From Leucobacter komagatae (lineage in GTDB: Bacteria > Actinomycetota > Actinomycetes > Actinomycetales > Microbacteriaceae): a stretch of 64,000 bases of DNA. Made by a program: the position numbers and the translations under genes. Numbering within the stretch: position 1 is the stretch's first letter; each line of letters begins with the position of its first letter. Positions 19,401 to 21,754 of the stretch are shown one piece after another. The notes under the pieces were generated by a model, which was not told where the DNA came from, ran no database searches, and was given only the letters and a program-made list of their open reading frames with translations. The DNA is taken from contig NZ_JXSQ01000009.1 in NCBI RefSeq assembly GCF_000834055.1, positions 1 through 64,000 on the forward strand, written 5' to 3'.

Positions 19401-19655
19401 ATGGGGGATTACGTACCACAGGGGCTTTTCTGGTTTTCGCTCGCGCTCATTAACGCCGGACTCGCGGAGCAGAAGAACCGCTCCCGATTCTCGTGGTTTC
19501 TCCTGAGCCTCGTGTTGGGGCCGTTCGCGACGTTCTACGTTGTCGCAACCGCGGCCCCCGCGGCACCCGCCGGGTCGCCTGCTCCCACAGCTTCTGCTGC
19601 GGCCGCGGTGCCGGGGGCAGGAAACGCTGCAGGCTCCGGCGGCGAGGTCAACTAG
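19401..19655 (+). CDS. Small membrane protein, hypothetical
   Basis: Encodes 84 residues. Two hydrophobic stretches (about 6-22 and 31-50) are separated by a charged turn (EQKNRSRF), followed by an Ala/Pro/Gly-rich tail. The hairpin pattern resembles short actinobacterial integral membrane proteins of unknown role. The start ATG follows GGTGGGGGT. The tail composition alone could arise from GC-rich non-coding sequence, so the gene call rests mainly on the two membrane segments and the start. Confidence 0.6.
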   Translation: MGDYVPQGLFWFSLALINAGLAEQKNRSRFSWFLLSLVLGPFATFYVVATAAPAAPAGSPAPTASAAAAVPGAGNAAGSGGEVN

Positions 19656-19803: not shown

Positions 19804-20373
19804 ATGGCTGAGCAAACACACGGTGACGCGCGCCCGGGCCCTCTGAGATCTCCGAGTTCTACGGGATCTCCGAGTTCCAGGCACTCCCCGGGTTCCGCAG
19901 TTCCCGAGGCCTCGAGTGACGCCTCGCCCGTGGGCGACGGTGAGACCGGGCAGCAGGGCTCGCGACGTCCGCTTCCACTATGGCGGCACATGCTCGGAGC
20001 GGAACTCCGTCGGCTCCGACACAAGCGGGGCGACACTCTCGGAGAAATCGCGTCGCGCGCAGGCCTCTCCCCGCAGTACCTCTCCGAGATGGAGCGAGGC
20101 GTGAAGGATCCCTCGAGCGAGATGGTCGAAGCCGTCGCGGGGGCGCTCGGCGTCACGCTCGTGGACCTCGCGCGCGCGGTCGCAGATGAACTCAGCGGCG
20201 CGCAAGCGCGGGACGTGCGCGCTTCGACCATACGATCCAGCGCCGCCGCTCATCCTCGCGCTGTTGGTACTGACGCTGTTGGTGCTCGCGCTATTGGTGC
20301 TCGCGCTATGGGATCGCCGGCCGTCGTGCTTCTTGCGGCACGCCCCCAGGCGACGCTCGCGCTCGCCGCCTAG
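19804..20373 (+). CDS. XRE-family regulator, ClgR/PopR-like
   Basis: Encodes 189 residues from the ATG at 19804; the longer open frame upstream is non-coding. A disordered Ser/Pro/Gly N-terminus (~55 residues) precedes an HTH_3 domain at ~60-125: RLRHKRGDTLGEIASRAG, then LSPQYLSEMERGVKDPSSEM. This spacing is that of ClgR/PopR, activators of clp genes in actinobacteria (in Streptomyces popR is next to clpP3-clpP4). The C-terminus has short repeats (VGARAIGARAMG) from a 15-base DNA repeat. It faces the clpP pair convergently and likely controls it (inference). Confidence 0.82.
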   Translation: MAEQTHGDARPGPLRSPSSTGSPSSRHSPGSAVPEASSDASPVGDGETGQQGSRRPLPLWRHMLGAELRRLRHKRGDTLGEIASRAGLSPQYLSEMERGVKDPSSEMVEAVAGALGVTLVDLARAVADELSGAQARDVRASTIRSSAAAHPRAVGTDAVGARAIGARAMGSPAVVLLAARPQATLALAA

Positions 20374-20461: not shown

Positions 20462-21055
20462 CTACTTCGCGACTATGACGTGGTCGAGCAGCCCATAGTC
20501 GCGCGCCTCGCTCGCCGTGAAAACCCGGTCGTGGTCGGTGTCCTTCCTGAGCCGCTCCACCGTCTGCCCGGTGTGGCGCGACAACACCTCCTCCAAGTCG
20601 GAGCGGATCCGCACGGCCTCGTCTGCCTCCAGAATGAGGTCCGGGATAGTGCCACGCCTGCCCTCGTTGCTCGGCTGGTGCAGGATCACCCTGGTGTGCG
20701 GGAGCGCCATGCGTTTGCCGGCGGCACCCGCCGCGAGCAGGGCAGCGCCAACTCCGACGGCCTGCCCAACGCAGGTCGTGGCGATGTGCGCACGCACGTA
20801 CTGCATCGTGTCGTAGATCGCGAGCATCGCGCTGGGGTCGCCGCCCTCGCAGTTGATGTACACATTGATATCGGCGTCAGCGCTCGTCGAGTCGAGGTAG
20901 AGCAGCTGCGCGATGATCGCGTTCGCGACGCCAGCGTCGATGGGCGTGCCGAGGTAGATGATCCGCTCGCTGAGCAGGTGCGAGTAGACGTCCATGATCC
21001 TGTCGCCTCGCGGGCTCTGGGACACGACGCTCGGGATGGTGTAGCTCTGGCTCAC
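20462..21055 (-). CDS. ClpP-family protein lacking the catalytic serine (ClpR-like)
   Basis: Encodes 197 residues with the full ClpP fold: DINVYINCEGGDPSAM, VGQAVGVGAALLAAG, PHTRVILHQPS, YGLLDHVI. The nucleophile motif of active ClpP (GQAAS) reads GQAVG here, so Gly101 replaces the serine; I confirmed this in the nucleotide sequence (GGC/GGA codons, no Ser nearby). His126 and Asp191 remain. It should form rings but not cleave by itself, like ClpR of plants and cyanobacteria. Its ATG overlaps the stop of the upstream clpP by 4 bases, implying a mixed complex with that active subunit. It is not next to clpX, unlike the housekeeping pair. Confidence 0.9.
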   Translation of the reverse strand: MSQSYTIPSVVSQSPRGDRIMDVYSHLLSERIIYLGTPIDAGVANAIIAQLLYLDSTSADADINVYINCEGGDPSAMLAIYDTMQYVRAHIATTCVGQAVGVGAALLAAGAAGKRMALPHTRVILHQPSNEGRRGTIPDLILEADEAVRIRSDLEEVLSRHTGQTVERLRKDTDHDRVFTASEARDYGLLDHVIVAK

Positions 21056-21684
21056 AGCGTTTCCCCTTGCTGCGGGGTCGCGACGAACCCGCCGGCAGAC
21101 ACACTCGTCGGTAAAATCGTCGCGAACGAGTCGACGACGGAGTCGGCGAAGCCATACGCGATGGCCTCTTTGGCCGCGTACCAGTGATCGTGCAGCGAGT
21201 CTTCGAAGATCTTGGCTACGGGCTGCCCTGTGTCCTCGCTCGTGAGGCCGAGAACGGTGTCGCGGGTGTGCCTGAGATCTGCGGCCTGCAGCTCAACGTC
21301 GCCGGTTGATCCGCCGATTCCCGCCGACCCCTGGTGCATCAGCACGCGGGTGTGGGGGAGGACGTGGCGCTTGCCGGGCGTGCCAGCAGTGAGGAGGAAC
21401 TGGCCGGCGCTGTACGCGATCCCGAGCGCGAGCGTCGCAACGTCGTTGGGTACGAGGCGGATCAGATCGCGGATCGCGAGCATAGCCGGCACCGATCCAC
21501 CGGGCGAGTGGATCCACAGCGAGATATCGGCCTCGCTGTCGGCCGCGGCAAGCGCGAAGATCTGGGCTGCGAGCAGCAGGCCGTTGTCGTCGTCGAGAGC
21601 GCCGTCGAGCACGAGGATTCGTCGCTCGAACAGCTCCCGCCTGAAGGGTTCCGTGAATACGGGTGGACGTGTTTGTTCGGTCAT
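21052..21684 (-). CDS. clpP: ATP-dependent Clp protease proteolytic subunit (active-site intact)
   Basis: Encodes 210 residues. The triad is visible as Ser92 (GIAYSAGQF), His117 (RVLMHQGSAG) and Asp181 (YGFADSVV), with the oxyanion SPGGSVPAM. It degrades unfolded or tagged proteins handed over by a Clp ATPase. First gene of a two-gene operon with the serine-less paralogue; the 4-base overlap suggests matched synthesis of the two ring types. A PopR/ClgR-like regulator lies downstream, convergent. A near-perfect palindrome ~40 bases upstream of its start is a candidate operator. Confidence 0.93.
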   Translation of the reverse strand: MTEQTRPPVFTEPFRRELFERRILVLDGALDDDNGLLLAAQIFALAAADSEADISLWIHSPGGSVPAMLAIRDLIRLVPNDVATLALGIAYSAGQFLLTAGTPGKRHVLPHTRVLMHQGSAGIGGSTGDVELQAADLRHTRDTVLGLTSEDTGQPVAKIFEDSLHDHWYAAKEAIAYGFADSVVDSFATILPTSVSAGGFVATPQQGETL

Positions 21685-21724
21685 GCACTCAGCTTGCCGC
21701 GGTGTAGTCGCGCAGTGGGGCGAT

Positions 21725-21754
21725 GCTGCTCAGGGCAGCGCTGCCCTGGGCAGC
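21725..21754. promoter_or_regulatory. Palindrome upstream of clpP pair, candidate operator
   Basis: CAGGGCAGCGCTGCCCTG (21731-21748) is a perfect 18-bp palindrome, extended by GCTGC on the left and GCAGC on the right. It lies 41 bases upstream of the clpP start in the 285-base gap before the divergent ABC exporter. The gap holds no other recognisable gene. The binding factor is unknown; the nearby XRE regulator is one candidate. Confidence 0.5.

Follow-up and report, generated by a model that had tools for sequence, protein, structure and literature searches.

The closest described relatives of the locus presented here are the paired ClpP peptidases of actinobacteria; statements on these systems, here and below, are taken from the accessible portions of the cited papers. 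In Mycobacterium tuberculosis the Clp ATPases bind, and need, exclusively the ClpP2 face of ClpP1P2 (PMC4416901). In Streptomyces hawaiiensis the Clp ATPases dock via ClpP2, catalysis is supplied by ClpP1, and a core assembled from ClpP1 and the mutant ClpP2 S131A is fully active (PMC9765437). Viability of S. lividans requires clpP1clpP2 or clpP3clpP4, either one being sufficient, and removal of PopR depends on ClpP1P2 (PMC9765437). A PopR site with the core TCTGCC-N3-GGCAGA has been quoted, and the C-terminal alanines of ClgR and Lon are considered their likely ClpP degron (PMC9775585); the ssrA tag ends in ALAA (PMC7142297). ADEP-resistant mutants of S. lividans devoid of ClpP1 express ClpP3P4 (PMC12607617), which gives this second pair a bearing on ClpP-targeting antibiotics. 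The ClpP3P4 backup, PopR with its box, and the occurrence of ClpR in other organisms are not new. Here we describe a locus of this type in which one of the two subunits has lost its catalytic triad, and we follow this loss through the actinobacteria.

The clpP pair of Leucobacter komagatae

The window, i.e., the 64,000 nucleotides at positions 1 to 64,000 of contig NZ_JXSQ01000009.1, contains two adjoining clpP genes on the reverse strand. The upstream gene (21052..21684, ATG start) encodes a ClpP3-type, ClpP1-like subunit of 210 aa, termed subunit B; the downstream gene (20462..21055, GTG start) encodes a ClpP4-type subunit of 197 aa, termed subunit A. According to the ORF positions the stop of B and the start of A overlap by 4 bases (21052..21055, reverse strand), a spacing of -4 common to 169 of the 205 pairs introduced below. 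The PF00574 (Pfam) scores of the two proteins, 212 and 163 bits at a cut-off of 20.2, identify both as clear ClpP proteins.

Where active ClpP reads GQAAS, subunit A reads CVGQAVGVGA. In a HMMER alignment to solved ClpP, G101 of A stands opposite the serine, H126 opposite the histidine, and D176, part of HDRVF, opposite the Asp of the DRDY motif. An earlier note, made from the sequence alone, had reported the Gly at the serine position of the gene at 20462-21055 and the retention of His126 and Asp191. The alignment confirms the glycine and the histidine; the triad Asp, however, is D176, and D191 is a different conserved residue. With G101-H126-D176, subunit A lacks a complete Ser-His-Asp triad. 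The triad of B, S92-H117-D166, is intact and the 4-base overlap is real, both as described in that note.

Among 54 genomes of the genus searched, A is present at 78% identity or more in nine, with B adjoining each time, and Gly101 is found in all nine orthologues, the window copy included. A sequencing error at the Ser codon is thus ruled out, and the glycine must reflect more than chance. Some match at E 0.001 exists in 53 of the 54 genomes. Four Leucobacter genomes additionally have long frames with weak ClpP-like matches of 21-27 bits (G021:C9:379951, G049:C1:1179983, G026:C4:67594, G001:C1:1494320), perhaps phage head-maturation proteases.

That no Clp ATPase is nearby was borne out: a profile search of the 62 contigs of the assembly located the Clp ATPase C-terminal domain PF10431 four times, on contigs C14, C18, C2 and C1, and not on the window's contig C9. 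A housekeeping locus, which the earlier note had advised to look for elsewhere in the genome, exists on another contig. Its clpP1P2 genes are normal (C2:15233-16456), and beside them a 458-aa frame of the Clp ATPase type, with the PF10431 match at C2:17587-17823, is presumably clpX. Crude clustering of the neighbours in 147 loci with 59 genus labels yielded four clusters only that occur in more than 9 genera, namely the clpP pair, the frames antisense to it, the regulator, and one cluster of 28 genera which we take for frames antisense to the regulator. None of these clustered neighbours links the module to another pathway.

One-sided loss of the catalytic triad

Pairs were sought in 211 loci, comprising the window, contigs of named genomes (80 retained of 394 relatives), four plasmid records, and genomes from searches of the genus, the phylum and the class; some genomes are included twice. 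An A/B pair is present in 205 of these loci, with 191 distinct A. Six loci have no pair; five are housekeeping ClpP in the tree and the sixth, L250, is outside the tree. A complete Ser-His-Asp triad is found in B of all 191 distinct pairs vs 41 of the 191 A. Five A hits with intact triads (L244, L247, L248, L252, L253) were removed before further counting: four fall among housekeeping ClpP2 in the tree, and L252, outside the tree, was excluded because it resembles L248 in having the same motif and a similar spacing. In the resulting 186 distinct pairs B is intact without exception (186/186), A is intact in 36 and broken in 150.

The manner in which A is broken varies. At the serine position we find Ala (85), Gly (23), Glu (10), Trp (4), Asp (1) and Phe (1); at the histidine position Gly (17), Gln (1) and Asp (1); at the aspartate position Asn (10), His (6), Thr (3), Glu (3), Ser (2), Ala (1) and Gln (1). 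Some A proteins carry two triad changes. The 17 proteins with Gly for His are those of S. fungicidicus (L037), which is thus broken at the His instead of the Ser, and of 16 genomes sharing one genus code (f5/g9), taken for Streptomyces; 16 of the set read SGD and one SGE. A second change close to the active site may track the loss: GGD in place of the ClpP motif GGS (D73 of the window protein) occurs in 100 of the 150 broken A vs 1 of the 36 intact ones.

A sample of 394 genomes drawn evenly from the class, 125 of which matched at E 1e-58 and in which each listed place was examined, permits an estimate of frequency. The A type is present in 107 of the 394 genomes; by manual tally, 18 of the 125 matched with housekeeping ClpP only. 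One A (G511) starts at a contig end, has no readable B and was left out of the scoring. Of the 106 pairs that could be read, 71 have a broken and 35 an intact A, and B is intact in all 106. Sampling started from a broken A, which may favour broken relatives, and this query and the strict cut-off may have missed some of the intact or distant A types. The phylum-wide search was of little use for prevalence, as 17 of its 29 new loci are ordinary single ClpP. It is evident from the survey of pairs that the loss is not limited to the Microbacteriaceae. The earlier note had been uncertain whether actinobacterial paralogues already include forms without a nucleophile; the ClpP4-types do, and they are widespread and not peculiar to Leucobacter. 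Outside the window's class, a more distant pair in genome G166 (L127) has an A that keeps Ser and His and carries Ala for Asp; its position in the tree has weak support, and the module with its one-sided loss may not be restricted to the class.

The regulator and its boxes

A PopR/ClgR-like XRE regulator (19930..20373, forward strand, about 147 aa) is convergent with the pair; from its stop at 20373, 88 bases separate it from the clpP stop. Comparison with relatives by eye favours the GTG at 19930 as the start rather than the mechanical ORF start at 19540. The protein terminates in ATLALAA, an ending similar to that of the ssrA tag of E. coli. Upstream of the pair lies a dyad resembling a PopR box, GCTGCC-CAG-GGCAGC (21740..21754, reverse strand; 2 mismatches), 56-70 bases ahead of the ClpP3-type start. 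A second dyad, GCTGCC-CTG-AGCAGC (21725..21739, reverse strand), adjoins it back to back, so that both cover 21725-21754; with 3 mismatches by manual count it is weak when taken alone. The convergent orientation, the LALAA tail and the dyads support the previous assignment of a PopR-like gene beside the pair. ClgR itself is ruled out (NF041677, 54.1 bits at a cut-off of 170); a better ClgR candidate of the same genome is on contig C1, scores 102 bits and ends in LVSR. By its likeness to PopR the regulator is predicted to be an activator.

When dyads upstream of B were counted blind, TCTGCC-N3-GGCAGA, the published PopR core, was the commonest, with 52 of 186 regions vs 2 for the best shuffled dyad. 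With up to 2 mismatches a PopR box is present in 167 of 186 upstream regions and, after base shuffling, in 2 of 186. Downstream sequence of 500 bases or more was available in 182 of the 186 loci. A convergent HTH gene like that of the window is present in 170 of these and was not found in the other 12. Of the 170 regulators 165 end in AA and 160 in LAA; as a rough background, 72 of 1998 long frames, spurious frames among them, end in AA. The AA ending accompanies intact A (30/31) as often as broken A (135/139).

Repeated loss and purifying selection

For the tree, 24 housekeeping ClpP sequences were combined with 89 sequences representing the called A rows, of which 85 are A-type and 4 turned out to be housekeeping; the triad columns were omitted. 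The A clade has a support of 98; some inner branches are below 50. Parsimony requires seven losses and one regain at gain costs of 1, 2 and 5, and 14 losses when regain is forbidden; in view of this quick tree with several weak inner branches the figure of seven depends on the tree. Lineages that have lost only the Ser, only the His or only the Asp indicate at least three separate losses independently of any tree, unless residues were restored. The apparent regain of a nucleophile concerns Frigoribacterium sp. JB110 (L066, 4001-4579), whose A has Ser (CVGQAISVGA) and is nested in an Ala group.

The dead subunit is under purifying selection. In pairs with broken A the median dN/dS is 0.076 for A (714 comparisons) and 0.103 for B (762), the comparisons overlapping and not being independent; in pairs with intact A the values are 0.153 and 0.196, from only nine comparisons each.

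As a control, housekeeping ClpP2 was searched in 35 genomes with broken A. All 35 matched, and in the 30 loci returned ClpP1 and ClpP2 are intact without exception (30/30), as they are in all 21 further loci taken from Leucobacter genomes that have no A (21/21). Both triads are therefore complete in 51 of 51 housekeeping loci, a general loss of ClpP catalysis in broken-A genomes is ruled out, and among the sequences examined triad loss is confined to the PopR-linked A. A housekeeping-like cluster, tig-clpP1-clpP2, was also encountered on a record of 465 kb labelled as a plasmid of Microbacterium sp. NIBRBAC000506063 (L039).

A proposed docking ring and cutting ring

Tree, sequence and fold agree that A is ClpP2-like and B is ClpP1-like. 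Subunit A of the window has the ClpP2-like docking features N-loop Pro8, Y66 and Y86. In the 186 A proteins the N-loop Pro is conserved in 185, Y66 in 182, and Phe or Tyr at position 86 in 155. At the position equivalent to 86, B has Leu in 138 of 186. The AlphaFold model of A (mean pLDDT 91.7) possesses an N-terminal hairpin; that of B (mean pLDDT 90.4) does not. The top PDB matches of the A model are chains of M. tuberculosis ClpP1P2 entries, including 4u0g_A, which is labelled subunit 2; those of the B model are other M. tuberculosis ClpP1P2 chains, and 6pbu and 2c8t (titled ClpP1) are among the 50 listed.

We start from what was observed, i.e., the sequences and their conservation, the one-sided triad loss, the selection, the regulator tail and the boxes. 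The locus is probably a PopR-controlled ClpP3P4 backup peptidase which forms an asymmetric barrel, with a ClpP4-type ring that docks the ATPase and a ClpP3-type ring that cuts. The loss on one side with an intact partner on the other suggests such a bisected barrel. The particle would consist of one heptameric ring of A and one of B. Subunit A, without an active site of its own, retains the axial N-loop and the hydrophobic cleft used for docking of Clp ATPases; B would carry all active sites. ClpX or ClpC would sit on the dead ring and thread substrate across it to the live ring with its seven active sites. Healthy ClpP1P2 would destroy the regulator, which has an ssrA-like tail; upon failure of ClpP1P2 the regulator would accumulate, bind the upstream boxes and switch the spare protease on. 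Drawing in part on the work in Streptomyces and Mycobacterium, we infer that the rings are separate, that A is the docking side, that A by itself would be inactive, and that the module would be inducible in Leucobacter. An antitoxin had a shorter half-life in E. coli BL21 when any one of S. cattleya ClpP 1, 3, 4 and 5 was present together with ClpX (PMC4989188). Because this host possesses a ClpP itself and the ClpP numbering differs, the result is ambiguous concerning the activity of a lone A-type subunit.

The split between docking and catalysis known from ClpP1P2, taken to its end, would explain a dead A. The loss is not obligatory, as 36 of 186 A have a full triad. Two observations speak against the docking-ring reading: position 86 of A is His in 31 of 186, and the equivalent position of B is Phe in 20. 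Further, no examined housekeeping ClpP2 has lost its triad despite a serine that is dispensable in vitro. Dispensability alone is therefore insufficient, and the backup role must matter.

One may ask whether the repeated killing of the docking ring was selected and not tolerated as drift. We regard this as rather unlikely; if true, it would explain the frequent triad loss of ClpP4 vs none in the examined housekeeping ClpP2. The backup would be needed when ClpP1P2 is poisoned, e.g., by naturally occurring inhibitors of ClpP. A barrel with only one live half would offer fewer reactive serines, no cutting or self-processing at the docking face, and no competing homomeric peptidase. According to the accessible part of a review, S. 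coelicolor without clpP3 and clpP4 is killed by beta-lactones (PMC9775585), which is in keeping with a spare function when ClpP is inhibited and is no test of the poison idea.

Alternative explanations

The earlier note had proposed a structural ClpR-type subunit in a hetero-ring. Its core, a selected subunit without nucleophile that works with an intact partner, is well supported. By its scores, however, A is apparently not a member of the cyanobacterial and plastid ClpR family: against NF009204/PRK12552, which we take to be the ClpR model, A reaches 154.5 bits at a cut-off of 263 and scores better with six other ClpP models. In our tree, calculated without cyanobacterial ClpR, it groups beside actinobacterial ClpP2. 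From these comparisons A is ClpR-like in logic and apparently not by family.

Each ring could still be composed of both subunits, in the manner of cyanobacterial ClpP3/ClpR; live and dead subunits would then occur on both faces, with the dead ones tuning the rate. In the ClpP3/R rings of Synechococcus three P3 alternate with four R (PMC4673316), and the frequent 4-base overlap may suggest coupled synthesis. Nevertheless we judge mixing unlikely. The apical cleft and the N-loop are not alike in A and B, fitting two different faces, and the closest folds of both subunits are chains of M. tuberculosis ClpP1P2, an assembly whose ATPases need the ClpP2 side only; by this analogy two separate rings appear likelier than a mixed hetero-ring.

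Alternatively, the dead subunit might chiefly be a modulator which enters or breaks up housekeeping ClpP1P2 and dampens or redirects it, in the manner of ClpP_ADEP of S. hawaiiensis, which disrupts ClpP1 complexes and pairs with ClpP2 (PMC12607617). This appears quite improbable considering that B directly adjoins A in 205 of 211 loci, that A is ClpP2-like whereas the described disruptor is ClpP1-like, and that the requirement of S. lividans for clpP1clpP2 or clpP3clpP4 implies a working protease (PMC9765437).

The retention of His and Asp in Leucobacter A might point to continued cutting by another nucleophile. We give this very little credence: within five residues of position 101 of the window protein (VGQAVGVGAAL) there is no Ser, Thr or Cys, and other lineages lose the His or the Asp instead, which no single replacement nucleophile explains. 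Finally, decay of the A gene, with loss of catalysis as a first step towards a pseudogene, would account for the many different letters at the triad and is largely refuted, indeed almost inconceivable, given the dN/dS of 0.076, the preserved docking residues, N-loop and gene overlap, and the lack of inner stops among the listed genus and class matches (pair calling accepting open frames only).

Comparison with known systems

The module is most similar to PopR-ClpP3-ClpP4 of Streptomyces. Both share the gene order, a convergent HTH regulator that ends in AA, PopR boxes, and separate housekeeping clpP1P2. In S. fungicidicus (L037) the layout is that of the window and the PopR box is exact; its ClpP4-type subunit keeps the Ser and has Gly for His, whereas that of Leucobacter has Gly for Ser and keeps the His. 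The accessible portions of the Streptomyces literature treat ClpP3P4 as a functional backup and make no mention of a broken triad. In the literature passages covered we found no report of ClpP4-type subunits broken by different routes across the Actinomycetes; the loss of His in Streptomyces may have been remarked earlier, for instance in the primary Streptomyces paper.

ClpR of cyanobacteria, plastids and apicoplasts is likewise a subunit of ClpP fold without a working triad that has an active partner (PMC7966870, PMC4673316). The present module apparently belongs to another lineage as judged by scores, is a simple two-gene pair, and has ClpP2-like docking features. With ClpP_ADEP of S. hawaiiensis it shares the character of an accessory actinobacterial ClpP acting through partners; unlike A, ClpP_ADEP is ClpP1-like, is encoded near the ADEP antibiotic cluster, and forms an active complex with ClpP2 (PMC12607617).

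The housekeeping ClpP1P2 of M. tuberculosis and S. hawaiiensis resembles the pair in that ClpP2, like A, has the N-loop and an aromatic cleft, and ClpP1, like B, has less of both. In the Streptomyces enzyme catalysis is carried out by ClpP1, yet both housekeeping triads are complete in every locus we examined. The broken A subunits appear to be, in effect, natural repeats of a Ser-to-Ala type experiment, which in the sequences examined always affected the same subunit of the backup protease and never its partner or the housekeeping pair. Consequently, the division of labour between docking and cutting becomes directly testable, which is relevant for the stoichiometry and the purpose of mixed ClpP barrels.
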